Below the pieces are notes generated by a model. The model was not told the DNA's origin. It saw nothing but the letters and a program-made list of their open reading frames with translations, and searched no databases. DNA of 36,461 nt, taken from NCBI GenBank assembly GCA_020072765.1, contig JAIQGD010000017.1, forward strand, positions 1-36,461, read 5' to 3'. The stretch is from Terriglobia bacterium (GTDB lineage Bacteria; Acidobacteriota; Terriglobia; Acidiferrales; UBA7541). The translations under genes were made by a program, and so were the position numbers. Every line of letters begins with the position of its first letter. Within the stretch, counting starts at the first letter, position 1. Below, one piece after another: positions 895 through 14,433 of this stretch.

Positions 895-2145
895 ATGTCC
901 AAGACACCGGAGGAGCTGCTTGCCGAGCGCAGCAAGCGCCTAGAGGACGCCTATGCGCTGCGGAAGCCGGACCGCACGCCCATCAGCCTGAACCTGGGAT
1001 ACATGCTGGCGAAGATGGGCGGGATCACCTGCCAGGAACTGGATGCTGACCCGGAGAAGGCGCAGCAGCTGCTGGAGCAGGCGGCGCTGTACTTCCAGCC
1101 GGACCAGGCCGTGGGGCTGGGGGCTTTTGTTTCCGCGCCCAGCGTGATGCTGGGCGACCGGCTGTCGAAGTGGCCGGGCTATGGGCTGCCGCCCGACAAG
1201 CCCATGCAATTCATCGAGGGCGAATACATGAAGGCCGAGGAGTACGACGAGTTCCTCGACGATCCGAGCAACTACACGTTGCGGAAGCTGCTGCCGCGCA
1301 TGTATGAAAAACTCGATGGCCTGGCGCTGCTGCCGCGCATCCCCATGCTGGCGACCGGCTATCCGGCGTTCGCGAGCCTGGCGGCGCTGAACGATCCGCG
1401 CGTGGTGGCCTCGATCGAGGCGCTGGCGAAAGTGGCGCGATTCCACCTCGAGAGAATCCCGGTGGCGAAGAAACATGCGCAGCGCATGGCCGCGCTGGGG
1501 TTCCCGACCGGGATTGGCCGCTGGGGTGCGTTTGCGCTGGCGCCGTTTGACTTCATGAGCGACACGCTGCGGGGCATGCGGGGCGTGTTTCTGGACATGC
1601 GCCGGTGTCCGGACAAGCTGCTGGCGGCGGAAGAGAAGGCGCGGAAGATTTGCGCGGAAGAGGCGATCGCGGCGTGCCGCGCGTCGGGGAGTAAATTCGT
1701 CTTCATCCCGTTGCATCGCGGTTCCGATGGGTTCATGTCGCTGGAGCAGTTTGAAAGGTTCTACTGGCCGCAATTGAAGGCCCTGGTGGCGGATCTGGTG
1801 GCGGGGGATGTCGTGCCGGCATTGTTCTACGAGGGTGTGTGGGACAAGCGCCTCCAGTATCTGCGCGAATTGCCGGTGGGGAAGACGACCGGGCGCTTTC
1901 AGAGCACCGATATTTCCAAGCTGAAGGAAACCGTCGGGGACGTGCTGTCGATCTCCGGTTGTTTTCCGGCGTCGCTGTTGCAGGTGGGCACGCCGCAAGA
2001 GGTTCGCGAGCTGACCAAGAAGATGTGCGGGATTCTGGGCAAGGGCGGGGGGTTCGTCATGGGCGCGAATTCGTCGATGGACGAATGCAATCCGGACCTC
2101 GTGAAAGTGTGGTGCGACGCCACGCGGGAATACGGCGCCTGCTAG
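895..2145 (+). CDS. Uroporphyrinogen decarboxylase (URO-D) family protein
   Basis: 416 aa from the ATG at 895. The in-frame ATG at 865 was rejected because ggagagg (884-890) is a Shine-Dalgarno site four bases before 895, and because a -10-like box overlaps 865. The protein has the URO-D/methyltransferase barrel pattern: an N-terminal region resembling LNLGYMLAKMGG, a central FIPLHRGSDGFMS segment, and a C-terminal ISGCFPASLL...GTPQEVRELTKKM region followed by a gGGFVMGANSSMDECNP segment. These last two correspond to the glycine-rich strand and terminal motif of URO-D-like corrinoid methyltransferases. It differs too much from HemE to be called heme biosynthetic, and no heme genes are nearby. 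Related proteins act in methyl transfer or demethylation (MtaA/MtbA-type). No corrinoid protein is encoded within view. The substrate is unknown. Confidence 0.8.
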   Translation: MSKTPEELLAERSKRLEDAYALRKPDRTPISLNLGYMLAKMGGITCQELDADPEKAQQLLEQAALYFQPDQAVGLGAFVSAPSVMLGDRLSKWPGYGLPPDKPMQFIEGEYMKAEEYDEFLDDPSNYTLRKLLPRMYEKLDGLALLPRIPMLATGYPAFASLAALNDPRVVASIEALAKVARFHLERIPVAKKHAQRMAALGFPTGIGRWGAFALAPFDFMSDTLRGMRGVFLDMRRCPDKLLAAEEKARKICAEEAIAACRASGSKFVFIPLHRGSDGFMSLEQFERFYWPQLKALVADLVAGDVVPALFYEGVWDKRLQYLRELPVGKTTGRFQSTDISKLKETVGDVLSISGCFPASLLQVGTPQEVRELTKKMCGILGKGGGFVMGANSSMDECNPDLVKVWCDATREYGAC

Positions 2146-2206
2146 CGATCCGGGGCGGTGCAGCGCGGGCGGAGTGGCAATAACGGCAACGCGGCGGGGC
2201 GCAAAG

Positions 2207-2234
2207 TTTGCGGAAGTGTGCGGGATGTTATAAT
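2207..2234 (+). promoter_or_regulatory. Strong sigma70-like extended -10 promoter for degP-like gene
   Basis: tgttataat at 2226-2234 is a perfect extended -10 (TGnTATAAT). A weak -35 (ttgcgg, 2208-2213) lies 15 bases upstream. The predicted start of transcription is near 2241, about 33 bases before the ATG at 2274. The same gatgttataat string recurs on the minus strand at 14440-14450. Confidence 0.65.
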
Positions 2235-2273
2235 CGCGCTTAAGGCATGTGGCGGGGAAGAAGGAGCACGGGG

Positions 2274-3836
2274 ATGGGGATCGAATTCCAGGAACTATGG
2301 AGCTGGGCCAGACGGCGGAAGGTGTTCGCATCGCTGGTCGTCGCGGTCACGCTGGGGCTGGGCATTATCATCGGGAGTCTGGTTTCGGGCCGGGCGCTGG
2401 CCACGCGCGGGCAGACGCGCAATGGCGTCGCGCTGCTGGCGGTGCCGGACCCGGTGAACTTGTCGGGCGCTTTTTCCAATATCGCGAAGAGTCTGGGTCC
2501 CGCCGTCGTCAACATCTCGACCACCCAAATCATCGAAAAGCGCAAGAGTGCCAAGCCTCCCCGCAATCGAAACAACAACGATGATCCGTTTCAGGATTTC
2601 TTCGACCGCTTTTTCGATTCGCCGCGCGACGCTCCCGACGCGGAGCGCAGCCTGGGTTCCGGAGTCCTGGTGGACAAGAAGGGGCTGATCCTGACCAACG
2701 ATCACGTCATCGATCAGGCCACGAAGATTCAGGTGACGCTGGACGGCGATTCCAACCATTACAACGCACACGTGATCGGCACGGACAAGGATACCGATCT
2801 GGCGGTGATCAAGATCGACGCCGATCATGAGTTGCCGGTCGCGCGCTTTGGCAATTCCGACGGCGTGCAGGTGGGCGACTGGGTGTTGGCGTTTGGCAGC
2901 CCGTTTGGATTGAACTCCACGGTGACAGCGGGAATCATCAGCGCCAAGGACCGCTCGAACGTCGGCCACCAGTTTCAGCGCTTCATTCAGACCGACGCGG
3001 CGATCAATCCGGGCAATTCGGGCGGGCCGCTGGTCAACCTGGCGGGCGAGGTGATCGGGATCAATACGGCGATCTTCACGGGGAGCCGGGGGTTTGAAGG
3101 CGTGGGCTTTGCGCTGCCTTCGAGCACGGCGATCAGCGTGTACAACCAGCTGGTCACCGCCGGAAAAGTGACGCGCGGGTCGATCGGCGTGACGTTCCAG
3201 GAAGAGAACAGCAACAATCCGGTGCTGATGCGGGCGCTGGGAGCGCCGTACGGGATCGTGGTGGAGGCGGTGGAACCGGGCAGCCCGGCGGACAAAGCGG
3301 GGTTGCAGGCCGGGGACGTCATCAGCAACGTGAACGGGCAGGCGGTGCATACCGGCGCGGATCTGGTCAACCCGATCGCGCAGACGCCCATCGGGCAGCC
3401 CATTGAGCTGCATTACGTCCGCAACATGCAGGCGAAGGACGTAACGCTGACGGTGGCGGACCGGTCGAAACTTTTCCCGGCCTCCGCCGAGGACAGCAGC
3501 GCGCAGCCGGGTCGCAGCGAGGAACCGGTGCAGTTTGGCTTGCATGTCGAGGAGTTGACGCCGGATCTGGCGCGCAAGCTGGGCATGGGCAAGCTGGCGG
3601 GAGTGGTGGTCACCGAAGTCGAGCCGGCGAGCTTTGCCGAGGATGTCACCTTCCTCCGGGGCGACGTGGTCACCGAGATCAACCGCGTGGCCATCAATTC
3701 GATGGGGGACTACCGCACGCAGATGGGGAAGCTGAAGCCCGGACAGGACGTATTGTTCCGGGTCGCGCGGCGCGATAACGACCGCGTGCTGATGCTGTAT
3801 CTGGCGGGCGCGGTTCCTCCGCTGCCGGCGCGGTAG
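2274..3836 (+). CDS. DegP/HtrA-type periplasmic serine protease, two PDZ domains
   Basis: 520 aa from the ATG at 2274. aaggag (2261-2266) lies seven bases upstream, so the ATG at 2247 was rejected. Residues 17-39 form an N-terminal membrane anchor or signal segment after a basic start (WARRRK). The trypsin-like domain carries the full triad: H144 in LTNDHVID, D175 in DTDLAVIKI and S249 in NPGNSGGPLV. Two PDZ domains follow (about 285-385 and 412-515). These proteases and chaperones degrade or hold misfolded envelope proteins and are usually envelope-stress induced. The asparagine/proline-rich linker at about 93-105 lies where the regulatory LA loop or N-terminal segment varies between members. 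A peptidoglycan-binding-domain protein follows 96 bases downstream. Family certain; choice between degP, degQ and degS uncertain. Confidence 0.95.
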   Translation: MGIEFQELWSWARRRKVFASLVVAVTLGLGIIIGSLVSGRALATRGQTRNGVALLAVPDPVNLSGAFSNIAKSLGPAVVNISTTQIIEKRKSAKPPRNRNNNDDPFQDFFDRFFDSPRDAPDAERSLGSGVLVDKKGLILTNDHVIDQATKIQVTLDGDSNHYNAHVIGTDKDTDLAVIKIDADHELPVARFGNSDGVQVGDWVLAFGSPFGLNSTVTAGIISAKDRSNVGHQFQRFIQTDAAINPGNSGGPLVNLAGEVIGINTAIFTGSRGFEGVGFALPSSTAISVYNQLVTAGKVTRGSIGVTFQEENSNNPVLMRALGAPYGIVVEAVEPGSPADKAGLQAGDVISNVNGQAVHTGADLVNPIAQTPIGQPIELHYVRNMQAKDVTLTVADRSKLFPASAEDSSAQPGRSEEPVQFGLHVEELTPDLARKLGMGKLAGVVVTEVEPASFAEDVTFLRGDVVTEINRVAINSMGDYRTQMGKLKPGQDVLFRVARRDNDRVLMLYLAGAVPPLPAR

Positions 3837-3932
3837 ATTCCGAGGCAGGCCGGAATGGGATCGCGAGACCAGGGGAGTTCCTTGGGTAACGAAAACATGA
3901 AGATGGGCGTCGGCAGGAGAATGAAAACAACC

Positions 3933-4445
3933 ATGAGATGGCTGGCCATCTTCGCGGCGCTGACGTGTGTGCCGGTGTGGGTGGCGGCTGCTCCGGCAGG
4001 GTCTCCGCGGCCCGCAAAGTCATCTTCGGCAGCGAAGGCCTCCACCCAGGGGAAGAAGAAGCGCCGCGCAAAGCGCGTGCCGGTGCAAAAGGCGCCCACG
4101 GCCGACCGCATCGTCGAAATCCAGTCCGCACTGGCACGGGCGGGGTACTATCAGGGCGCCCCGAACGGAAAGTGGGACGCCAACACGATTGGGGCAATGC
4201 AGAAGTTCCAGTCGTCGAATGGACTCGATGGGACCGGAAAACTCGACGCCCTGAGCCTGCAGAAGCTGGGACTCGGGTCGAGCATCGCCGGTGTTTCGGC
4301 GCCGAAGCCCGTGATGCCTGGCGGCAGCGCGACGCCACCGCCGCAGCAGGCGCCGGCATCGCCGGCTGCTGCACCCAGTGGCGCGGCCATGACGGGCTCG
4401 ATCCTGAACGGCGTTTCGGCCTCGAACGCGAAGCCTTCCCAGTAG
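3933..4445 (+). CDS. Secreted peptidoglycan-binding (PG_binding_1) domain protein
   Basis: 170 aa with the ATG at 3933 (aggaga at 3915-3920, spacing 12). The ATG at 3921 would add four residues; starts at 3855, 3897 and 3903 lack a usable ribosome site and put charged residues before the signal peptide. Residues 1-20 are a signal peptide (RWLAIFAALTCVPVWVAAA). A Lys/Arg-rich segment (41-53) follows. A single PG_binding_1 three-helix domain (about 57-115) has the typical IVEIQSALARAGYY start and an AMQKFQ helix. The tail is Ala/Pro-rich and disordered. There is no catalytic domain, so it probably only anchors to murein. It follows the DegP-like gene and may share its transcript. The basic stretch could interact with anionic wall polymers (inference). 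Confidence 0.8.
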   Translation: MRWLAIFAALTCVPVWVAAAPAGSPRPAKSSSAAKASTQGKKKRRAKRVPVQKAPTADRIVEIQSALARAGYYQGAPNGKWDANTIGAMQKFQSSNGLDGTGKLDALSLQKLGLGSSIAGVSAPKPVMPGGSATPPPQQAPASPAAAPSGAAMTGSILNGVSASNAKPSQ

Positions 4446-4546
4446 CGGGCGGCCGGCGTCGGCGGCACGCCACGCGGTTGCATTGCTGATACGCAACGCT
4501 CCAGCCCGATCCACCCATCGCGAACGACACGACCGGAGGACGCGCC

Positions 4547-6049
4547 ATGGCCACCTCGCAGGCACCGAAATCCTTCAGGAATTTCATCGACGGCGAATGG
4601 GTGGAGCCCCGCGGCGGCCAGACCATCGAAAATCGCAATCCCGCCAACACCAGTGATCTCATCGCACTGTTTCCGGCTTCGGCCGCCCAGGATGTGGCCG
4701 TGGCGGTGGACGCCGCGAAAGCCGCGTACGGCAAGTGGCGGCTCACTCCGGCGCCGCGCCGCGCGGAAATCCTGTTTCGCGCCGCGGAGATTCTCACAGC
4801 GCGCAAGGAAGAGTACGCGCGGGAAATGACGCGCGAGATGGGCAAGGTCCTGGCGGAGACGCGCGGCGACGTCCAGGAAGCGATCGACATGACCTACCTG
4901 ATGGCCGGCGAAGGCCGCCGACAGTTTGGCCAGACGACCCCCTCCGAGCTGCCGAACAAATTTGCGATGTCCGTGCGCGCGCCGGTGGGCGTGGCGGGGC
5001 TGATCACGCCGTGGAATTTTCCCATGGCCATTCCGTCCTGGAAAGTGATGCCCGCGCTGGTGTGCGGCGACACCATGGTGCTCAAGCCCGCCGAAGACAC
5101 GCCGCTTTCCACCTACCATCTCACGCAGGTGCTCGCCGAAGCGGGCCTGCCGCCCGGTGTATTGAACGTGGTGTTCGGCGACGGTCCGGGAGCGGGCGCG
5201 CCGATTCTGAGTCATCCGGACATCAATCTCGTCAGCTTCACCGGCTCAACGGAAGTGGGCCGCATCGTCAGCCAAGCGTGCGCCCCGGCGTTCAAGAAAT
5301 GCCATCTGGAGATGGGCGGGAAGAACATCATCCTGGTGATGGACGATGCGAACCTCGATCTTGCGGTGGACGGCGCGGTCTGGGGCGGCTTTGGAACCAC
5401 GGGGCAGCGCTGCACGGCGGCGAGCCGCGTGGCCGTGCACAAGAAAGTCTATCGCGAGTTCGTCGAGAAATTTGTGGCGCGCGCGAAGGCGCTCAAGGTC
5501 GGCGACGGCCTGGACCCGGCGGTGCAGATGGGGCCGTGCATCAACGAGCAGCAGCTCCAAACCGTGATGCGCTACGCGGAACTCGGGCGCCAGGAAGGCG
5601 CGAAGGTCGTCACGGGCGGGCATCGCCTCGAAGGCGGCGCGCATGCGCGGGGATGGTTCCACGAACCGACGGTGTTTGTGGATTGCGACCCGCAGATGCG
5701 CGTTTGCCAGGAGGAGATTTTTGGCCCCATCGTTTGCGTGATTCCGTTTGAGTCGTTCGACGAGGCACTGGCGATTGCCAACGGCGTGAGTTACGGCCTG
5801 TCCGCGGCGATCTATACGCGCAACGTCAATCACGCCTTCCGCGCGCAGCGCGATCTGGAGACGGGCATTGTCTACGTGAACGCGCCCACCATAGGCGCGG
5901 AGGTGCACCTGCCGTTTGGCGGCACCAAGAACACGGGCAACGGCCATCGCGAGTCGGGCCTGGCGGCGCTGGAGTTCTACTCCGAATGGAAGACCATCTA
6001 CGTCGATTACTCCGACCGGCTGCAGCGCGCCCAGATCGATACGGCCTAG
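4547..6049 (+). CDS. NAD(P)+-dependent aldehyde dehydrogenase
   Basis: 500 aa; ggagga at 4535-4540 sits six bases before the ATG. It is a complete aldehyde dehydrogenase: cofactor-site PWNFPMA with catalytic N157, the LKPAEDTP stretch, the FTGSTEVGR nucleotide motif, general base E255 in LEMGGKN, nucleophile C289 in TTGQRCT, and the C-terminal EEIFGPIV and [15 protein letters not shown] segments. These enzymes oxidise an aldehyde to the acid through a thiohemiacetal on the Cys. The sequence reads most like the semialdehyde-oxidising branch (alpha-ketoglutaric, succinic or aminoadipic semialdehyde), but specificity cannot be set from sequence alone. There are no pathway partners nearby, so it may be a housekeeping or detoxification enzyme. 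No signal peptide, hence cytoplasmic. Confidence 0.93.
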
Positions 6050-6074
6050 CCCGGCATGGCCGCGTCCGCTTCGG

Positions 6075-6103
6075 TTGACACGCGTGGCGCGCCCACGCAG
6101 AAT
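6075..6103 (+). promoter_or_regulatory. Candidate promoter for the M13 peptidase gene
   Basis: A perfect -35 (ttgaca, 6075-6080) lies 17 bases from cagaat (6098-6103, four of six matches to the -10 consensus). The spacer holds a short inverted repeat (cgtgg/ccacg, 6083-6097). It would give a leader of about 110 bases before the ATG at 6222. Confidence 0.5.
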
Positions 6104-6221
6104 GTCGTCTGCCAGGCCTTGCGAGCGGTAATTCCCGGCAAGAGAAGGTTCCCCCATATCGCGCCTCACTTCGGCAGGGAAGGCTTGTGCTTTCGAGACA
6201 GTTCGAGAAAGGAAGGTCACG

Positions 6222-8375
6222 ATGATCCGGCGCTCTGAGGTGGCTCTGCTTGCGATTCTGATTCTGCTCTTCCCGGCGATTCTGGCGGCGCAATCGGCTG
6301 ATACGAAGAGCGCGGCGGCGCCCGCGGTGAATGATGCCGGCGGATGCTCGGGCTTCGGCGTGGGCGCGTCCGGCGACGGCGGAAGCGCCTCCTCCGCGGG
6401 CCGCGGGAGCGCGGCCGCCCACGGATTCGACCTGGCGAATCTGGACCGCTCCGTTTCGCCGTGCGAGGACTTCTACCGATTCGCGATTGGCGGCTGGCTG
6501 AAAAGCCACCCGATCCCAGCCGACCATAGCGCGTTTGGGTCCTTCGATAGGCTGCAGGACCAGAACCAGAGCGTCTTGCGCCAGATCCTCGAGGACGCGG
6601 CGAAAGAGAAGACCGTTGTTCCCGGTTCACCCCACCAAAAGATCGCCGACTTTTACGCGAGTTGCATGGACGAAAGCCAGATTGAATCCGCCGGCGTCAA
6701 GCCCCTCGAGCCGGAATTCCAGCGCATCGCGGAGATCCACGACGCGGCGGGCCTGCAGGCGGAAGTTGCGCGGCTGCAGCGCATGGGCGTCAACGCCGTC
6801 TTCGTCTTCTCCTCGGAGCAGGACTTGAAGGACAGCACGCAGGTGATCGGCGGAGCCGGGCAGGGCGGCCTGGGCCTGCCGGACCGCCAGTATTACCTCG
6901 ATGAGGATGATCGCTCGAAGCAGATGCGCGCCGCCTACGTCCAGCACGTCACCAACATGTTCAAGCTGCTGGGCGACGACGCCGCAGCCGCCGCGGCCGA
7001 GGCCAACGGCGTGCTGAATTTCGAAACCGCGCTGGCGAAGGCTTCCACCAAACGGGAAGACCTGCGCGACCCGGAGAGGAATTACCATCCGCTGCAGCTC
7101 GCGCAGCTCGCCGAACTGACGCCGCACCTTTCCTGGAAGGATTATTTGAAGGAACTGGGGGCGCCCGGCCTGGCCTCCGTTGACATCGGCCAACTCGACT
7201 TCTTCAAGCAGGTGGACGCGGCCATGGCCTCGGCTCCGCTGGCGGACTGGAAGATCTATCTCCGCTGGCATTTGCTGCATAGCGTGGCCACGGCCTTGCC
7301 GGCGAAATTCGTGGACGAGAATTTTTCTTTCTACGGCCGCGCGCTGGGTGGCGCCAAGCAGCTGCGTCCACGCTGGCAGCGCTGCGTGCGCAGCACGGAC
7401 GGGGAGCTGGGCGAAGCCCTGGGGCAGGACTACGTGAAGCACCATTTCACGCCCGAGACAAAGGCCAAGGCGGTGGCGATGGTGAAGAACCTGATCGCCG
7501 CGCTGCGAGACGATCTGTCGACGCTGGACTGGATGAGCCCCGCCACGCGCGCCCAGGCCATCAAGAAACTCGACGCCATCCAACTCAAGATCGGCTATCC
7601 GGACAAGTGGCGCGACTATTCCGCGTACCGCGTGGACCGCGGCTCCTACGTGGAGAACGTCCTGCGGGGCAACTCGTTTGAAAGCGCCCGCGATCTGGCG
7701 AAGATCGGCAAGCCCGTGGACCGCACGCAGTGGGATATGACGCCGCCGACCGTCAACGCGTATTACAGTCCTCCGATGAACGAGATTGTCTTCCCGGCGG
7801 GAATCCTGCAGCCGCCGTTCTACGATCCGAAGGCCGACGACGCGATCAACTACGGCGGCATCGGCGCCGTGATTGGCCACGAATTGACGCACGGCTTCGA
7901 CGACGAGGGCGCGAAATTCGACGGGCAGGGCAATCTGCGCAACTGGTGGACGCCCGAAGACCTGAAGAATTTCGAGACGCGCGGAGAATGCATCGCCAAG
8001 CAGTTCGATGCCTTCGAGGTCGAGCCGGGCCTGCATCAGAACGGCAAACTGGTCGAGGGGGAGAGCATCGCCGATCTCGGGGGCATGACGATCGCGCGCG
8101 CCGCTCTCGCCAAGGCTCTTGCCGGCAAGCCCGCTCCGGCGCCCATCGGCGGCTTCACGGTCGAGCAGCGCTTTTTCCTCGGCTGGGCGCAGATTTGGGC
8201 CGAGAACATGCGCCCCGAATACGCCCGGCTCATCGCCAAGACCAACGAGCATCCCCTGGATCAGTTTCGGGCCAACGGGCCGCTGGCGAACACGCCCGCT
8301 TTCGCCCAGGCATGGAGTTGCGGCGCGAAGTCGGCGATGGTGCGTTCGGAAGCGGCGCGCTGCCGCATCTGGTGA
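6222..8375 (+). CDS. Secreted M13 (neprilysin/PepO-like) zinc metallopeptidase
   Basis: 717 aa; ggaagg (6211-6216) is five bases from the ATG. A signal peptide (1-23, ending ILAAQS) is followed by a low-complexity Gly/Ala/Ser region and then a full M13 peptidase. The N-terminal helical domain starts at DRSVSPCEDFYRFA. The catalytic domain holds NAYYSPPMNEIVFPAGILQ, zinc motif HELTH (H553, E554, H557) and third ligand E614 in GESIADLGG (with D618). The C terminus ends in the family's conserved Cys-Arg-x-Trp. Length is normal for the family. M13 enzymes cleave oligopeptides. Being exported, it probably works on extracellular or periplasmic peptides. Acidobacteria often carry several M13 paralogues (general knowledge). 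No operon partner. Confidence 0.95.
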   Translation: MIRRSEVALLAILILLFPAILAAQSADTKSAAAPAVNDAGGCSGFGVGASGDGGSASSAGRGSAAAHGFDLANLDRSVSPCEDFYRFAIGGWLKSHPIPADHSAFGSFDRLQDQNQSVLRQILEDAAKEKTVVPGSPHQKIADFYASCMDESQIESAGVKPLEPEFQRIAEIHDAAGLQAEVARLQRMGVNAVFVFSSEQDLKDSTQVIGGAGQGGLGLPDRQYYLDEDDRSKQMRAAYVQHVTNMFKLLGDDAAAAAAEANGVLNFETALAKASTKREDLRDPERNYHPLQLAQLAELTPHLSWKDYLKELGAPGLASVDIGQLDFFKQVDAAMASAPLADWKIYLRWHLLHSVATALPAKFVDENFSFYGRALGGAKQLRPRWQRCVRSTDGELGEALGQDYVKHHFTPETKAKAVAMVKNLIAALRDDLSTLDWMSPATRAQAIKKLDAIQLKIGYPDKWRDYSAYRVDRGSYVENVLRGNSFESARDLAKIGKPVDRTQWDMTPPTVNAYYSPPMNEIVFPAGILQPPFYDPKADDAINYGGIGAVIGHELTHGFDDEGAKFDGQGNLRNWWTPEDLKNFETRGECIAKQFDAFEVEPGLHQNGKLVEGESIADLGGMTIARAALAKALAGKPAPAPIGGFTVEQRFFLGWAQIWAENMRPEYARLIAKTNEHPLDQFRANGPLANTPAFAQAWSCGAKSAMVRSEAARCRIW

Positions 8376-8605
8376 CGCACCGCGGGGGTGAAGTCCACGT
8401 CCCTCAGCGACTAAAGCCGCTTTGATCTAGCGCCGTTTGCGGCACGGTCCCGACGGCTATCCGGGACGCAGACGGCGCGCTAAAGCCGTGCCCTGGCGCA
8501 AGACCGGGATGGTCAGACGGCCTCTATAGCTGCTCTCACCGTGCGGACGTTTTGTCGCGGCGGAAGCCGCGACACCCAAGGCGTTCCGCCGTCTTGAGCA
8601 TCCGG
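8376..8605. repeat. Intergenic mosaic of small palindromes between convergent genes
   Basis: This gap between the M13 gene (+) and the dinB-like gene (-) holds several short repeat units. 8397-8423 carries acgtccctcagcg followed by actaaagccgc; a near-identical inverted copy lies at 19700-19724. 8474-8495 carries a related ggcgcgctaaagccgtgccc. 8554-8573 is a perfect hairpin, gtcgcggc and gccgcgac around a GGAA tetraloop. No open frame with a ribosome site is convincing here. The region probably contains the 3' ends of both transcripts, but no T-tract terminator was seen. Confidence 0.6.
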
Positions 8606-9109
8606 TTAGGCCGCGAGGATCTTCTCGATCTGCTTCATGTGGTTGATGTCGTGGCCCGCGATCATGTGGACGATCGTTTCGATGGTCTCTTCGCCGCGCT
8701 CGGCGTGCAGGCCGTGATGCTTCCATTGCTCGGGCGCCAGGGCCTTCAGCAGCGCCAGATTCGCTTCGCGGAAGGCGCGAAACTGCGCGCACGATTGCCG
8801 CAGGTCGCGCTTTTCGTAGTGTAGGGCCTTCACCCACTCGTCCTGATCGAAGGCCTGGATGGGGACGCCCGGCTCGCCCAGAATCATGCGCAGCCGGAAC
8901 CCGACCACTAACTCGGTGTCCGCCAGGTGCGCGACAATCTCGTTAATCGACCACTTGGTCGGCGCCGGCCGTTTTCGCGCCTGCGACGCGCGCAGGCCCT
9001 TCAGCAGGCGTTCGAGCTTTTGCGGCGCCGCGGCTTGCATCTTGAGCGGATCGCGTCCCTCCACGTGACTGAGCACCCGCTGCCGGTATTCCTCGTGCGT
9101 CTCTTGCAT
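8606..9109 (-). CDS. DinB-superfamily protein (DinB_2-type four-helix bundle)
   Basis: 167 aa; aggagg (9116-9121) is six bases before the ATG on this strand. The protein has the DinB/YfiT-like four-helix bundle pattern and all three metal-site histidines: H61 in EIVAHLADTE, and H153 and H157 in AGHDINHMKQ. Members bind a divalent metal. Some are thiol-dependent S-transferases (bacillithiol or mycothiol transferases), but most are uncharacterised, and the name reflects a DNA-damage-inducible founder rather than a shared role. The gene stands alone, convergent with the M13 peptidase gene. Function not assigned. Confidence 0.88.
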   Translation of the reverse strand: MQETHEEYRQRVLSHVEGRDPLKMQAAAPQKLERLLKGLRASQARKRPAPTKWSINEIVAHLADTELVVGFRLRMILGEPGVPIQAFDQDEWVKALHYEKRDLRQSCAQFRAFREANLALLKALAPEQWKHHGLHAERGEETIETIVHMIAGHDINHMKQIEKILAA

Positions 9110-9145
9110 GGATGTCCTCCTGGGCGGAATGGTGGACCGGCTTTG

Positions 9146-9174
9146 ATTGTAAGGGAGCAGCGCTCAGGCCCCAA
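9146..9174 (-). promoter_or_regulatory. Candidate promoter for the dinB-like gene
   Basis: On the minus strand, TTGGGG (9174-9169) and TACAAT (9151-9146) are separated by 17 bases. The predicted leader is about 30 bases before the ATG at 9109. Confidence 0.45.
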
Positions 9175-9411
9175 GAAAAACCGCCCAGCCGGCCGGCCGC
9201 GCGCAGGTCCAAATTGGCACAGTGCGGGCATGCTTCGGGCGAGGCAAGGTCAGCAAAGGGCCTGTTTTTGATTCTGGAAACCACATCTACCAAAGGTCCC
9301 GGGAGGCGTGTGCCGGAGTCGTACAATGAAGGGCAGTTCGGGGCACGGCGGCCACTTGGGACGTAATCGGCAGCCGGGCCGCGCCACAGGCACTCTCAGA
9401 GGCTGAGCATC
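9175..9411. other. Intergenic region upstream of the J-domain gene
   Basis: No gene recognised. The only regulatory-looking signal on the plus strand is tacaat at 9322-9327, a possible -10 for the J-domain gene, without a matching -35. The upstream half is AT-poorer at its start and then unusually mixed (tgtttttgattctgg near 9263). No repeat or RNA gene was seen. Confidence 0.4.
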
Positions 9412-10236
9412 ATGGCACTGAAATCGGTGGACGTTCGTCCGGAGCCCGCCGCCGCTCCCGCGGCCGGCAAACCGCTCCTGAAACCCGAAGACCGGGAATT
9501 GGCGCGTAAGCTGGAAGAACAGGCGGCATTGGAGGCCGAAGTCGCCGAGCGCGAGCTGCGCGCCGCCAGCCTCCGCGCCGAGCTTTCCGCATTCGAACGG
9601 CGCTACCTGCACTTTGTCGGCTCCCGCTATGCGGAGTTGGACGAGTGCAAGGCGCAGATCGCCGAACAGTTGGTGCGCGAGCAGCCGGGCAACGAGCGCG
9701 TTCGGGAAATGGCTCGCGAGGCCCGCGCGCGCGCCAGCGACACCAAGTCCGCCGCCGGAGAGAAGTCTCCTCAGGAACCCCGGGCGTTCCAGCCTTCGCC
9801 GGAGCTCAAGCGGCTGTATCGCGAAGTGGCCAAACGCGTCCATCCCGACTTTACTTCCGACCGCGAGGACCGCGTCCAGCGGCAGCAGTTGATGGCGGAA
9901 GCGAACCAGGCCTACGAGCGCGGCGATGAAGCGCGCCTGGCCATAATCCTCACCGACTACGAGTGCAGCCCGGAATCGGTGCGCGGCGAAGGGCCGGGCG
10001 CCGAGCTGATCCGCGTCATCCGGCGACTCAGCCAGGTGCGGGGCCGCGGAGCCGAGATCGAGGCGGAGATGCAGGATCTCATGAGCTCCGAGCTCTACCA
10101 GCTGAAGGCGCGGGTGGAGGAAGCCGAGCGCAACGGCCACGATGTGCTGAAGGAAATGGTGAAACAGATCGAGACGCAAATTGCCGTGGCGAAGCAGCGC
10201 CTCGCAAATCCTCAGATGCCGCTCAAGCCCTCATGA
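9412..10236 (+). CDS. J-domain-containing coiled-coil protein
   Basis: 274 aa, no signal peptide. Order: Pro/Ala-rich N terminus (1-22), strongly charged coiled coil (about 25-110, rich in Glu/Ala/Arg), Ser/Pro linker, J-like core (about 130-185), second coiled coil (about 195-265). The J-like core has helix II LKRLYREVAKRV, the diagnostic HPD at 144-146, and helix III QQLMAEANQAYERGD. HPD is the motif by which J-proteins stimulate the ATPase of DnaK/Hsp70. There is no Gly/Phe region, zinc finger or C-terminal substrate domain, so it is not DnaJ itself but a J-protein with its own adaptor regions. The stop overlaps the start of the beta-propeller gene by four bases (ATGA), so the two are translationally coupled and probably work together. 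Weak ribosome site (gagg near 9399). Confidence 0.8.
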   Translation: MALKSVDVRPEPAAAPAAGKPLLKPEDRELARKLEEQAALEAEVAERELRAASLRAELSAFERRYLHFVGSRYAELDECKAQIAEQLVREQPGNERVREMAREARARASDTKSAAGEKSPQEPRAFQPSPELKRLYREVAKRVHPDFTSDREDRVQRQQLMAEANQAYERGDEARLAIILTDYECSPESVRGEGPGAELIRVIRRLSQVRGRGAEIEAEMQDLMSSELYQLKARVEEAERNGHDVLKEMVKQIETQIAVAKQRLANPQMPLKPS

Positions 10237-11444
10237 AAAAGACGCGCGAAAAATCCTTCGCGAAAGAGATCGTGCGCGCGCCTTCGCAGGGGTTGGCGGT
10301 GCGGTCGGCGGCGATAGTTACGCGCGGGTTGCGCGACCTGGCCCGCGATTCGAATTGGCGCGTCAAGCGAGCGTTCGCGGGCGACTCCGCGCGGCTGGCG
10401 ATTTCCCCGGCCGGGCAGGTGTGCGCCGTATCGCACTTTGCGGTGCAGGGCACCGAGCGGCTGGCGGTCTACGACATCGAGAGCGGCGCGCTAAGTCTGG
10501 CGCTGAGCGTGGCGGGCGAGAAGGCTGCGTGTCCTGAGGAGACGCCGGCGGCGCTGGCCTGGTCCCCGGCGGGACGTCACCTGGTGGCGGCGTGGGGCGG
10601 GTGGCGGCGTGAACTACACGCCTTTGATCTTCACGAAAGAAGGTTCCAGGGTGTGTGCGGCGGATTCTCCGAGTTTCCGACCTGGCTCGCCTGGTCGGAA
10701 ACCGGCAAATATTTTGCGGCGGCCTCGGCGGGCGGCCCGCAGGCCGGGCTGCGGCTGTGGACGTCCGCGCCGGACGTGGCGGGGCAGATGCCGGTGGCGG
10801 GAAACCCGGCGAGCGAACTGAACGCCGCGGCGTGGGATCGCTCCTCCAAGCCGGCTCCATTGCCGGAGAAGACGGCTGCGGAGGCGCCGGACGACCCAGC
10901 CGATGCGCCGGCAGCGCCCCTGCCGCCCGGCGGGGAAACCGACGAGGAGTCGTTCCGGGGCTTTGGCCGCCTGGCGTTCCGTCCCGACGAGCAGCAGCTC
11001 GCCGCCGTCGCCGAAATCGAAGGGGATTGGGCGGACGATTCCGTCGTGCTGCTGGAGATGCCCTCGTTGCGCAAGCAGAATGTGTTCAACGCGGCGGGGC
11101 ATATCACCGACGTCGCGTGGACCTGCGATAGCCGTCAGTTGATCGTCTGCTCCGCCGGGCAGGCTTTTCGCGTCGCGCCGGATCGCGGGGAGCCCGAGCC
11201 GCTGCCGTTCGGCGCCGAGCTGTGCGCCTGCCACCCGCATCTGCCTCTGGGTCTTTGCTTCAGCTCGTGGCTCAAGAATTCCGCCAAGGGCCGCCTCTTC
11301 CTGGTCGATTTGGGACGCATGGAGGTGTTCGACGAGCGCCCCGCCGAAGGCGTCGCCGGGCTGCGCTGGAGCGCCGACGGCTCCACGGCCTACGCCGTCA
11401 CCCGCGAAGGCCTCGCCTACATCTACGAACCCCCGCTGCTCTAA
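10233..11444 (+). CDS. Cytoplasmic WD40-like beta-propeller protein
   Basis: 403 aa starting at the ATG at 10233, inside the upstream stop codon region (ATGA overlap). A longer frame from 9963 only reads through the J-domain gene out of frame and was trimmed. The body is built of repeated blade signatures: ARLAISPAGQVCAVSHFA, PAALAWSPAGRHLVAAW, PTWLAWSETGKYFAAASA, GRLAFRPDEQQLAAVAE, TDVAWTCDSRQLIVCSA and AGLRWSADGSTAYAVT. These are spaced as in WD40/TolB-type propellers (about six visible blades). A Pro/Ala/Glu-rich insert lies near 220-255. There is no signal peptide or catalytic motif. Propellers usually act as protein-binding platforms. The coupling to a J-domain protein suggests a recruitment pair (inference). 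No precise family recognised. Confidence 0.75.
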   Translation: MKKTREKSFAKEIVRAPSQGLAVRSAAIVTRGLRDLARDSNWRVKRAFAGDSARLAISPAGQVCAVSHFAVQGTERLAVYDIESGALSLALSVAGEKAACPEETPAALAWSPAGRHLVAAWGGWRRELHAFDLHERRFQGVCGGFSEFPTWLAWSETGKYFAAASAGGPQAGLRLWTSAPDVAGQMPVAGNPASELNAAAWDRSSKPAPLPEKTAAEAPDDPADAPAAPLPPGGETDEESFRGFGRLAFRPDEQQLAAVAEIEGDWADDSVVLLEMPSLRKQNVFNAAGHITDVAWTCDSRQLIVCSAGQAFRVAPDRGEPEPLPFGAELCACHPHLPLGLCFSSWLKNSAKGRLFLVDLGRMEVFDERPAEGVAGLRWSADGSTAYAVTREGLAYIYEPPLL

Positions 11445-11469
11445 GAGATTGCTGCAAACCCCACGAGGC

Positions 11470-11554
11470 TGTCATTCCGAGGAGCGGAGCGACGAGGAAT
11501 CCCTCTTTCTCTGGCCTTTGATGAAGAGAGATTCCTCGCTTCGCTCGGAATGAC
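11470..11554. repeat. Dispersed intergenic palindrome, copy B (two arms)
   Basis: The left arm starts tgtcattccgag and runs into gacgaggaatccctctt. The right arm (11526-11554) is its imperfect reverse complement, agagattcctcg...cggaatgac. The arms are separated by about 25 bases. It lies between the convergent beta-propeller and tsaD genes, where its transcript would fold into a long hairpin from either direction. Same family as 664-715, 21923-21976 and 25233-25333. Confidence 0.8.
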
Positions 11555-11649
11555 GGCGGAACGATGTGTTTCTCAACAAGCTGCTAAGCCTTCGTCTCCG
11601 GAGTGGTTCTGGGAAGGGTGTGTCTCAGCGTCGTTGCTACATGGTGATC

Positions 11650-12771
11650 TTACGCGAGGGGGAGATTGGCTTCGGCGTTGAGGGAGGCGTCGGCGCGCTC
11701 GCCGGCGAGCAAGCGCGCATGGCCGGCGGCGGCGATCATGGCGGCGTTGTCGGTGGAGAGGGCGCGGCTGGGGAGGTAGACCTCCATCCCCAGGGGCGCG
11801 GCTTCGGCCTCGAACAGGCGCCGGAGTTCGCTATTGGCGGCCACGCCGCCGGAGACAAACACGGTGCGCGCCCCGTAATGCGCGGCCGCCTCGAGCGTCC
11901 GCCCGACGAGATTTTCCACCGCGGCGCGCTGAAAGCTGGCGATCAGGTCGAGCGTCGCGGGAGTCGATAGCGCGCGCAAGGCGTCCGCGCCGCGTTCGCC
12001 GCGCTCGATCGCTTGCTGTCGCGCTTCGATTTCCGGCTGAAGCTGCGGGTTGCGCTTCACGTGATACAGCACCGCCGTCTTGAGTCCGCTGAAGCTGAAA
12101 TCGTAGGGATTGCCCTTGATCTTGGGCTGGCCAAAGCGAATCGCGCGCGGGTTGCCGTGCTCCGCGAGCCGGTCAATCACCGGCCCGCCGGGATAGCCCA
12201 GCGCCAGCATGCGCGCGACTTTGTCGTAGGCTTCTCCGGCGGCGTCGTCGCGCGTGCCGCCGATGCGCGCGTAGGAGAAGGCTTCGGCGCCGTTCACCGC
12301 CTCGGTGGTCACGCGATAGATCACTGTGTGGCCGCCCGAAACAATCAAGCACATGGCGGGCAGCGCGGGGCGGCGTCCTGCCGCGTGCGCTTCCAACAGC
12401 ACGGCGTGGACGTGGCCTTCGAGATGGTTTACGCCGATCAGCGGCTTGCCGAGCGCCAGCGCCAGCACTTTGCCGTAGGTCATGCCGACCAGCAGCGCCC
12501 CGATCAGCCCCGGCCCGCGCGTCACGGCGATGGCGTCCAGGTCGCGCAGCGACACGCCCGCCTGCTCGCACGCTTCGCGCACCACGGGCACGATCTGCCG
12601 CAGGTGTTCGCGCGAGGCCAGTTCCGGCACCACGCCGCCGTATTTGCGGTGAATCTCCACCTGCGACGCGACGACGCTCGAAAGGATGCGCTTGCCCCCG
12701 GCCACGATAGCCGCCGCCGTCTCGTCGCACGAGGATTCGATCCCCAGGATCAGGTGTTCTTGAGTAGTCAC
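11650..12771 (-). CDS. tsaD: tRNA N6-threonylcarbamoyladenosine transferase TsaD
   Basis: 373 aa with a GTG start at 12771. No ATG lies near the expected N terminus (GIESSCDET begins at residue 10), and the ribosome site is weak (gacagg). Kae1/TsaD hallmarks are present: GIESSCDETAAA, metal ligands H116 and H120 in NHLEGH, SGGHT, GEAYDKVARML, FSFSGLKTA, GGVAANSELR and STDNAAMIA. With TsaB, TsaE and TsaC-made threonylcarbamoyl-AMP it forms t6A37 in ANN-decoding tRNAs, an essential cytoplasmic step. TsaB and TsaE are not in this window. Its start region faces galU across a short gap that contains a symmetric -10-like palindrome. Its 3' end faces the dispersed palindrome at 11470-11554. Confidence 0.97.
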   Translation of the reverse strand: MTTQEHLILGIESSCDETAAAIVAGGKRILSSVVASQVEIHRKYGGVVPELASREHLRQIVPVVREACEQAGVSLRDLDAIAVTRGPGLIGALLVGMTYGKVLALALGKPLIGVNHLEGHVHAVLLEAHAAGRRPALPAMCLIVSGGHTVIYRVTTEAVNGAEAFSYARIGGTRDDAAGEAYDKVARMLALGYPGGPVIDRLAEHGNPRAIRFGQPKIKGNPYDFSFSGLKTAVLYHVKRNPQLQPEIEARQQAIERGERGADALRALSTPATLDLIASFQRAAVENLVGRTLEAAAHYGARTVFVSGGVAANSELRRLFEAEAAPLGMEVYLPSRALSTDNAAMIAAAGHARLLAGERADASLNAEANLPLA

Positions 12772-12786
12772 AGCCCTGTCTCAATC

Positions 12787-12821
12787 TTGCCAATCGGCCA
12801 AAAACGCTATGCTAGCATAGC
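12787..12821. promoter_or_regulatory. Possible bidirectional promoter: perfect 16-bp palindrome between tsaD and galU
   Basis: gctatgctagcatagc (12806-12821) is a perfect palindrome. Because it is symmetric, both strands read TGCTAGCAT, an extended -10 form identical to the one before rpsO (28988-28996). On the plus strand TTGCCA (12787-12792), five of six to the -35 consensus, lies 20 bases from TAGCAT or 15 from the alternative -10 TATGCT. No good -35 was seen for tsaD. It may instead be an operator. Confidence 0.45.
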
Positions 12822-12899
12822 CGAGGGGAGCTTCCGGCGCAGCAGGCGATCCGGCCTGTGCGTCCGAGCGAGGCAGACAGGCGCCTGCCGCACAACATC

Positions 12900-13799
12900 A
12901 TGACCGAAAAGATCAGAAAAGTACGCAAGGCCGTGCTTCCCGTGGCGGGGCTGGGGACGCGTTTCCTGCCCGCAACCAAGGCGATGCCCAAGGAAATGCT
13001 GCCGGTGGTCGATAAGCCGCTGATTCAATACGCGGTCGAGGAGTGCGCCGCCTCGGGGATCGAACACATCATTTTCGTGACCGGCCGCCGCAAGAGCGCC
13101 ATCGAAGACCATTTCGACCGCGCGCCGGAACTCGAAAGTTTTCTCGATGAGCGGGGCAAGCCGGAGCAAGCACGCATGGTCCGGGAGATCAGCAACGGAC
13201 TGCGCTTCAGTTACACGCGGCAGAGTGAGGCGCTGGGGCTGGGCCACGCCGTGCTGTGCGCCGCCGAACTGGTGGGCGACGAACCGTTTGCGGTGCTGCT
13301 GGGTGACGTCATCATGGAAGGCGCGATTCCCGCCACGCGCGAACTGGTGGAAATCTACGAGGCGACCGGCGCGGGAGCCATCCACGTCGAGCGCGTGCCG
13401 CGCGAGCGCGTCCACTTGTACGGCATCGTCGATGTTGCTCCCGATCAACCCCGCCACCCGCGCTGGGGCGACCGGTTGCTGGCCGTGCGAAATCTGGTCG
13501 AAAAGCCTGCTGCCGATAAGGCTCCGTCGAATCTCGGTGTCACCGGCCGGTACGTCCTGCCGCCGGAAATCTTCGGTTATCTCGCGGAAACCAAGCCGGG
13601 CACGGGCGGCGAAATCCAGCTGACCGATGCGCTCTGCCGGCTGGCCAAGGAGAACAAACTCTTCGCCTGCATCTACGAAGGAAAGACGTACGACGCGGGC
13701 GACAAGCTTGGTTTTTTGGAGGCGACGGTCGAAATCGCGCTCAAGGACCCGAAACTCGGAGCCGGCTTTCGCGCCTATCTGCGCGGGCTCAAATTGTAG
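12900..13799 (+). CDS. galU: UTP-glucose-1-phosphate uridylyltransferase
   Basis: 299 aa from the ATG at 12900. The longer GTG-started frame at 12858 was rejected because family members start a few residues before KAVLPVAGLGTR. Signature elements are present: nucleotide-binding GLGTRFLPATKAMPKEML, GHAVLCA, LLGDVIM, VEKP, GRYVLPP and GGEIQLTDA, with catalytic-region YDAGDKLGF. The enzyme makes UDP-glucose from UTP and glucose-1-phosphate for polysaccharide, glycolipid and trehalose synthesis. It is divergent from tsaD and convergent with the FmdB-like gene, with no operon partner. The family also contains dTDP- and GDP-sugar relatives, but the GalU-specific stretches make this call secure. It could supply the donor sugar to the GT2 enzyme at 22665 (speculative). 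Confidence 0.95.
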   Translation: MTEKIRKVRKAVLPVAGLGTRFLPATKAMPKEMLPVVDKPLIQYAVEECAASGIEHIIFVTGRRKSAIEDHFDRAPELESFLDERGKPEQARMVREISNGLRFSYTRQSEALGLGHAVLCAAELVGDEPFAVLLGDVIMEGAIPATRELVEIYEATGAGAIHVERVPRERVHLYGIVDVAPDQPRHPRWGDRLLAVRNLVEKPAADKAPSNLGVTGRYVLPPEIFGYLAETKPGTGGEIQLTDALCRLAKENKLFACIYEGKTYDAGDKLGFLEATVEIALKDPKLGAGFRAYLRGLKL

Positions 13800-13862
13800 C
13801 CGTGCGATGGCGAGGGAAGGGGAACCGCTGGCCGGGCGCTCAACGCCGGGCGATTCCCGAGG

Positions 13863-14168
13863 TCACTTCTTTTTCTTCGCGGATGACTTCTCGGATTTCT
13901 CGGACGATTCGGGCTTCGATTCAGTTGTTTTTGCGGGCCCCGCTGCCGCGCCGTCGCCGGATTTCTCGCTGGACGACGTTCCCGAACTCTTGCCCCCATA
14001 ATCGGTCACATACCAGCCCGATCCCTTGAATTGGATGGCCGGGGCCGCGAACTGGCGCACCGCCCGGGCTCCGCACTTGGGACACTTCTTGATGTTGGCG
14101 GCGGACATGCTTTCGATCTTCTCGAAGCGATGTGCGCACTTCCGGCACTTGTACTCATACAAGGGCAA
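13863..14168 (-). CDS. FmdB-type zinc ribbon protein
   Basis: 101 aa with a TTG start at 14168. aggaga (14175-14180) lies six bases upstream, and the resulting N terminus MPLYEYKC is exactly that of the FmdB family, so the upstream start at 14219 was rejected. Two CxxC pairs (C8/C11 and C29/C32) form the zinc ribbon. GSGWYVTDYG (49-58) is the second conserved family block. The C-terminal 40 residues are Ser/Glu/Lys-rich and end in a lysine run. FmdB is described as a putative regulatory protein of formamidase/amidase operons, but its molecular role is unproven. The gene follows the small HMA-like gene by 37 bases, so the two are probably cotranscribed. Confidence 0.88.
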   Translation of the reverse strand: MPLYEYKCRKCAHRFEKIESMSAANIKKCPKCGARAVRQFAAPAIQFKGSGWYVTDYGGKSSGTSSSEKSGDGAAAGPAKTTESKPESSEKSEKSSAKKKK

Positions 14169-14205
14169 CGTGAATCTCCTCTCGGATGGCCGATGGCCGT
14201 GAACG

Positions 14206-14433
14206 TCAGGCCTCGGCAACGCGGCGCAGCACAGGAATTTTCGCCGCGCGCAGCACGTGCTCCACGACTGTCTCCCGCAGGCGGGAAGCGTCGTAGTCGA
14301 ACTGCAGGCGATTGGTCTTCTCGTCGAAGCGGAATCTCTGCAGCCCGTACGTATTGGCGAACTGCCCCAGGGCGCGAAATTGCTCCGTTTCGAGCCGGCC
14401 TTGCAACTCGTAGGTAACCGTCATGAATGTCAT
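14206..14433 (-). CDS. Small protein with HMA-like (ferredoxin-fold) pattern but no CxxC
   Basis: 75 aa from the ATG at 14433; the ATG at 14424 is an alternative. The frame's first ATG (14460) lies upstream of a strong -10 box and was rejected. Predicted strand/helix order is beta (TVTYELQG), alpha (ETEQFRALGQFANTYG), beta (LQRFRFDEK), beta (RLQFDYDA), alpha (RLRETVVEHVLRAA), beta (IPVLRRV). This is the HMA metallochaperone topology, but the first loop has no Cys-x-x-Cys, and the protein has no Cys at all. It lies between a copper-ATPase gene and an FmdB gene on the same strand. A copper-related or protein-binding role is inference; no family was recognised with certainty. Confidence 0.6.
   Translation of the reverse strand: MTFMTVTYELQGRLETEQFRALGQFANTYGLQRFRFDEKTNRLQFDYDASRLRETVVEHVLRAAKIPVLRRVAEA

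Follow-up and report, generated by a model that had tools for sequence, protein, structure and literature searches.

Sequence comparisons point to a short N-terminal tag as the conserved link between a J-like coiled-coil protein and the product of the gene that follows it, with the payload behind the tag exchanged between lineages. The modular tagged pairing itself we hold to be very likely; the sequences support the pairing, the shared tag, the exchange of payloads, natural fusions and a near-universal HPD motif. We give an even chance to the full mechanism that we propose, in which the tag would dock payloads on the J-like protein and the latter would bring DnaK to the payload-bound target. 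A wider reading, which we advance tentatively, is that of an Hsp70 substrate-adaptor family in at least six bacterial groups, in which one type of J scaffold and one tag would be combined with swapped payloads to re-aim DnaK. The pair described here lies in the window, i.e. the whole stretch of 36,461 nucleotides that was analysed (Terriglobia bacterium, assembly GCA_020072765.1, contig JAIQGD010000017.1, positions 1 to 36,461 of the forward strand).

Results

A J-like gene and a propeller gene overlap and are conserved together

The upstream gene of the pair (9412..10236, forward strand) encodes a J-like coiled-coil protein of 274 aa, identified from its ORF, Pfam, profile comparison and a predicted model; the downstream gene (10233..11444, forward strand) encodes a tagged WD40 propeller partner of 403 aa, identified from its ORF, Pfam and profile comparison. 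The propeller ORF starts with the ATG at 10233 and its 4-nt overlap with the J stop reads ATGA, confirming the four-base overlap described in an earlier note on this DNA.

Of 61 related genomes, 24 have a J homologue and 22 a propeller homologue, and the two genes are adjacent in all 21 genomes that carry both. The J gene lies directly upstream of the propeller gene in 21 of the 22, the exception (G012) being a locus cut by a contig end. This neighbourhood exceeds chance; the conservation of the pair that the earlier note had proposed to check is thus borne out, and the separate inheritance that would have spoken against it was not found. Three genomes (G030, G046 and G055) have a J gene and no WD40 propeller. 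The same note had suggested an unnamed, client-specific Hsp70-recruiting unit made of a J-protein and a propeller: the recruiting unit fits the evidence and its genes are co-conserved, but proteins of other kinds can take the place of the propeller.

The J profile has matches in 111 of the 399 genomes searched from the class and in 63 of the 396 from the phylum; for the contigs of relatives' genomes, the best 80 of 104 relatives were kept, and partners in other classes of the phylum were read at 20 hand-chosen loci. A tagged partner was assigned to 93 of 164 distinct HPD-bearing J proteins, by score in 82 cases and by eye in 11. The partner start overlaps the J stop in 66 of the 93, by exactly 4 nt in 32, and lies within 20 nt of it in 87, start codons having been picked by a rule that favours starts close to the J stop. 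By the rules used, the remaining 71 J proteins, fusions included, have no separate tagged partner, and the J-protein can therefore act without one. Single J genes with no tagged neighbour occur in other classes of Acidobacteriota (L160-L165 and similar loci), and at three loci (L112, L116 and L118) the J gene is followed by a gene that we take, from its sequence, to be cinA-like. Outside the main groups, a plasmid of Paraburkholderia phymatum carries a J homologue with no recognised tagged partner (L060, 5881-6627), and a plasmid of Enterobacter hormaechei carries a distant J-core protein of 390 aa, annotated as DnaJ (L059, 5248-6417), with an Hcp gene upstream of it and a polymorphic-toxin gene nearby.

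The partner is a propeller in the window and carries a short N-terminal tag

The window partner passes the Pfam WD40 cut-off (28.9 vs 27 bits), and the profile of its family matches many solved WD40 propellers, the best being PkwA (5yzv, E 2.8e-12), in line with the propeller assignment made earlier. The propeller payload covers about residues 49-403 (10377..11441, forward strand; Pfam, alignment and profile). An insert at about residues 205-243 (10845..10961, forward strand) varies in length among the aligned homologues and is longest in the window copy; the insert mentioned in the earlier note thus exists, and its disorder, also claimed there, is probable.

Ahead of the payload, residues 9-42 (10257..10358, forward strand) form an N-terminal tag, ...LAVRSAAIVTRGLRDLARDSNW, that is common to partners of other folds. 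It is ~34 residues long and centred on the motif S-x-L-V-x-R-G-L-x-D-L, the RG pair falling near residue 30 of the partner. In a hold-out test on 12,912 ORFs from 129 loci, the best non-WD40 matches of a tag HMM built from WD40 partners only are five J-locus ORFs (E 1.4e-4 to 0.013), with noise starting at 0.14; the fifth of them is the second tagged gene of locus L104. In the other direction, a tag HMM built from partners that are neither WD40 nor Sel1 recovers the WD40 tags with a best E of 2.5e-10. Against 580 shuffled sequences, 26 of 29 WD40 N-termini score above every shuffle, and 17 of 40 Sel1-class partners score above the shuffles' 99th percentile. Profile-profile comparison gives probabilities of 97.1 for the WD40 against the other tags, 67 for the Sel1 against the other tags and 25 for WD40 against Sel1. 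By these scores, the Sel1-class tag ties weakly to the other tags and is the weakest link of the series.

The tag also carries across phyla. When models trained on Acidobacteriota were run on 2,554 ORFs of 28 loci from outside that phylum, the eight top-scoring ORFs (E 1.4e-5 to 0.035) all lay 16-32 nt after a J stop. In 200 genomes of the class, 37 of the 38 matches of tag profile A3 at E <= 1e-3 lie directly behind a J gene, positions having been compared by eye; some A3 rows come from these same genomes, and the figure therefore shows specificity, not independent discovery.

Two other accounts of the tag were considered and rejected. The first, a free-standing tag worn by many clients elsewhere, finds in the window's own genome the propeller itself at 2.2e-12 and the next match at 0.024, and in the 200 genomes just one of the 38 matches (G024, E 2.6e-4) away from a J gene. 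The second, a tag copied from a part of the J protein, received probabilities of 0.1-0.3 in a profile comparison (A6).

Payloads behind the tag are exchanged and at times fused to the J protein

The gene after the J gene differs between families and yet occupies the same overlapping place. Groups with varied partners are Acidobacteriota, Cyanobacteria, Chloroflexota, Planctomycetota, Nitrospirota and Desulfuromonadales. Repeat payloads recognised by Pfam comprise Sel1 (L105 and L249), LRR (L102, L159, L255, L258 and L273), TPR (L130 and L259), ankyrin (L157), ankyrin plus Sel1 (L265) and, away from the window, WD40 (L272 from Microseira, and L308). Non-repeat payloads are a receiver (L094), GAF plus GGDEF (L129) and a PEGA domain in the second tagged gene of L104; three partners (the first gene of L104, L158 and L256) have no Pfam family. 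With labels outside the Pfam-scanned set assigned by similarity to scanned representatives, the payloads of the 93 tagged partners are 40 Sel1-like, 29 WD40, 8 TPR, 5 LRR and 7 unknown, with ankyrin, ankyrin plus Sel1, receiver and GGDEF occurring once each.

A tree of 159 J proteins computed with FastTree has several long branches and omits 5 of the 164 rows as too partial; on it, the payload changed at least 13 times, the 7 unknown payloads standing outside this count. Even if only the well-supported branches are considered, several label changes are required for WD40, Sel1, TPR and LRR, and payload exchange has therefore been repeated.

In L104, two tagged genes (6234-6896 and 6991-7731) follow one J gene. 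At L095 (6788-7747), the OB, zinc-finger and HhH parts of an NAD-dependent DNA ligase come directly after the tag, with the catalytic half of the enzyme missing; this piece may be a real payload or a contig chimera.

In some lineages, the J protein and its payload are a single polypeptide. In one acidobacterial family (ten copies aligned), the J part, a tag-like stretch and an LRR form one protein, which by eye is a homologue of the tagged LRR partner that L102 encodes as a separate gene. The predicted model of the fusion (529 aa; pLDDT 93.1, pTM 0.89) places the tag-like stretch in a helix at 218-229, and structure-search matches of this model cover mainly the LRR part. J-LRR fusions in Geobacter and other Desulfuromonadales (L295, L301, L302, L306 and others) apparently carry no tag, as read by eye, which is what one would expect of a tag needed for attachment only. 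In an Acidobacteriaceae MAG, locus L285 encodes a J protein with HPD followed by the tag and DNA polymerase III beta-clamp domains (3923-6736), adjoining another J fusion (1222-3672) that has HQG in place of HPD and carries WG repeats. These fusions are the strongest hint from sequence that J and payload act as one unit.

The permanence of such fusions bears on another reading of the pair, in which the J protein would be a dedicated folding helper: it would bind the tag so that DnaK folds or assembles the partner, which then works alone, and the tag would be a chaperone-binding leader rather than an adaptor part. The strict one-to-one neighbourhood with its gene overlap, the rarity of tags away from J (one of the 38 matches at E <= 1e-3 in the 200 genomes) and the majority of solenoids and propellers among the payloads all agree with it. 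However, receiver, GAF-GGDEF and PEGA payloads also occur, and the usual domains of these kinds need no dedicated folding helper; the J-LRR and J-tag-clamp fusions, in turn, suggest a lasting complex. Both the permanent fusions and the payloads other than repeats speak against a role limited to folding, and we consider this reading rather unlikely.

The surroundings of the pair are those of housekeeping genes

The six window neighbours scanned (4547-14219) encode an aldehyde dehydrogenase, an M13 peptidase, a DinB-like protein, TsaD, a nucleotidyltransferase and a zinc ribbon. A promoter scan of 9100-11700 found none, and the terminator-like sites in this interval fall inside or near genes. 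The propeller gene is closely followed by a 30-base repeat, TCATTCCGAGGAGCGNAGCGNNGAGGAATC, at 11472-11501, which has 18 copies (<= 2 mismatches) in the window's own genome against 0 for a backward control. It may be a hairpin repeat, since it is followed in the window by a copy that resembles its reverse complement.

These surroundings are relevant to the idea of a conflict or signalling device, in which the tagged payload would be a sensor or decoy, with the J protein and DnaK setting a threshold or assembling the response, much as has been proposed for other systems in which a chaperone gates variable modules. Pieces of replication proteins as payloads (the beta clamp of L285; the ligase OB, zinc and HhH parts of L095) favour it, as does a likeness between the repeats and signalling domains found here and the module sets of Kaur et al (2020; PMC7159879), at least as laid out in the portion of that paper considered here. 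The same portion offers a further likeness, a chaperone component beside highly variable modules with many repeat domains. It describes systems with cores of MoxR-vWA, of a GTPase (some with Hsp70) or of a peptidase, and it mentions DnaJ once, for GAP1-N2 systems, as a domain joined to a protein with FNIII repeats (PMC7159879). Neither MoxR AAA+ nor vWA genes are present among the six neighbours scanned at 4547-14219. At E <= 0.001, neither the J protein nor the propeller of the window matches a PADLOC model, and the matches of payloads from other loci are to repeat or AAA models; a PHROGs search returned nothing informative and no relative was found in viral contigs. With housekeeping neighbours in the window, and a ligase piece in L095 that may be a contig chimera, we regard a conflict device as distinctly unlikely.

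The J core keeps its HPD motif and appears to keep most of its helix II surface

The Pfam DnaJ model matches residues 131-169 of the window J protein at its positions 16-51 of 63, with E 0.0013 and 19.2 bits, below the cut-off of 27.8 bits; model positions 1-15, on the helix I side, are unmatched. A 68-row J profile compared with solved J-domains finds Thermus DnaJ (4j7z) at E 3e-4 and CbpA (2kqx) at 1.3e-3. In the predicted model (mean pLDDT 93.5), the N-terminal half contains a long helix of 66 residues (25-90; 9484..9681, forward strand), a helix at 95-116 and helix II at 130-143, directly followed by HPD (residues 144-146; 9841..9849, forward strand; sequence and conservation). Beyond lie helix III at 151-169 and helices at 173-184, 195-225, 227-240 and 245-265. 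The core proper, i.e. helix II, the HPD loop and helix III, thus spans residues 130-169 (9799..9918, forward strand; Pfam DnaJ and model). This predicted order of helices makes the earlier description of a central J-like core between long helices the right one. The stretch directly before helix II is a loop in the model, and no helix I was detected by Pfam or in the model, although another helix may pack in its place. A structure search with the whole J model gave no J-domain among the 50 matches listed, and no match of any kind at E <= 0.001.

Of 210 J ORFs detected (not deduplicated), 203 contain HPD and seven do not. Six of these seven are fragments, truncated or broken; the last is intact, has HQG and is fused to WG repeats. 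Note that HPD was the filter for the 164-row J table, so that its invariance there is by construction. For helix II, we read the positions by DnaJ residue numbers and their part in DnaK contact, as we take these to be. Among 159 aligned J proteins, preselected for HPD, position 133 is basic in 159, position 137 in 141 and position 141 in 155, and the position equivalent to DnaJ R27 is basic in just one. The basic helix II surface that the earlier note considered needed for DnaK therefore stands at 133, 137 and 141, which are largely basic, but not at R27; in this alignment, it appears to be kept mostly, not fully.

Residues 185-216 (9964..10059, forward strand) are conserved more in J proteins with a tagged partner than in those without, the two groups having similar effective sizes. 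The block includes S186, P187, V190, G192, G194, E198, L199, I203, R204, Q208 and I216, and this differential conservation makes it a candidate docking site for the tag.

Because the Pfam score lies below threshold and stimulation of Hsp70 is purely putative, we class the J protein by its proposed way of working, that of a J-protein adaptor, and not as a proven class C member. That the J core no longer serves Hsp70 and the coiled-coil protein is a scaffold that gathers tagged proteins would agree with the unmatched positions 1-15, the low Pfam score, the non-basic R27 position and the single HQG copy, but the near-universal HPD, with six of seven exceptions broken or truncated, and the largely basic positions 133 and 137 argue against a bare scaffold, which we consider very unlikely.

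Discussion

Proposed mechanism

We favour a mechanism in which tagged payloads direct DnaK through the J protein. Translational coupling would lead to the J protein and its partner being made together, and the tag would then dock on the J protein, most likely on the conserved 185-216 region. The payload would bind a putative client or sense a signal, the HPD core would trigger ATP hydrolysis by the general DnaK, and DnaK would then grip the bound client, or the payload itself. The window's own genome encodes one full-length DnaK, next to a canonical DnaJ on a contig other than that of the window, and one further DnaJ-like protein. Sequence alone only partly separates this mechanism from the readings set out above.

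Relation to described systems

F-box substrate adaptors of SCF ligases combine an N-terminal docking motif with alternative recognition domains. The partners described here are alike in having a short N-terminal motif, proposed to dock, followed by WD40 or LRR, an analogy for which we claim no homology; they differ in that a bacterial J-protein with Hsp70 would take the place of the ligase, and that each J protein has its own adjacent partner instead of being a hub for many adaptors.

The closest described logic, by analogy, appears to be that of AtcJ in the AtcJ-AtcC-AtcB system of Shewanella oneidensis, where, in the part of the report drawn on here, a 21-residue C-terminal extension of AtcJ docks on AtcC (PMC6715715). 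As described there, AtcJ is a dedicated J-domain protein of an operon that works via docking on an operon partner and brings the DnaK system to one task (PMC6715715). On the same partial account, the docking segment of AtcJ sits on the J protein and its partner set is fixed, whereas here the conserved segment sits on the partner and the partner folds are unrelated; the window-type J protein, furthermore, has long helical parts flanking the core on both sides. The WD40, Sel1, LRR, TPR, Ank, receiver and GGDEF proteins found here were set against AtcC and AtcB by description alone. Class C J-domain proteins, as far as the section of the review used here covers them, likewise have only the J core in common with DnaJ and recruit via other domains (PMC8215388); in our case, by contrast, the specificity domain would reside on a separate, tagged and exchangeable protein, and the J match covers helix II-III only.

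In the open-licence literature, with subscription journals mostly outside its scope, we found no description of the pairing of J with tagged partners or of the tag, and the two-part module of a J protein and a tagged partner is apparently undescribed in bacteria.

Significance

The pairing bears on the open question of what guides a single Hsp70 to particular clients. If the proposed mechanism is true, the tag and its exchangeable recognition domains would be a natural specificity code shared by several bacterial groups, and a testable one; the system occurs in cultured strains, e.g. Granulicella tundricola, where its genes are ACIX9_RS20565 and RS20570. It would give a function to many genes whose present annotation is hypothetical or simply that of a repeat protein, and might offer a ready-made way of aiming Hsp70 at chosen proteins.
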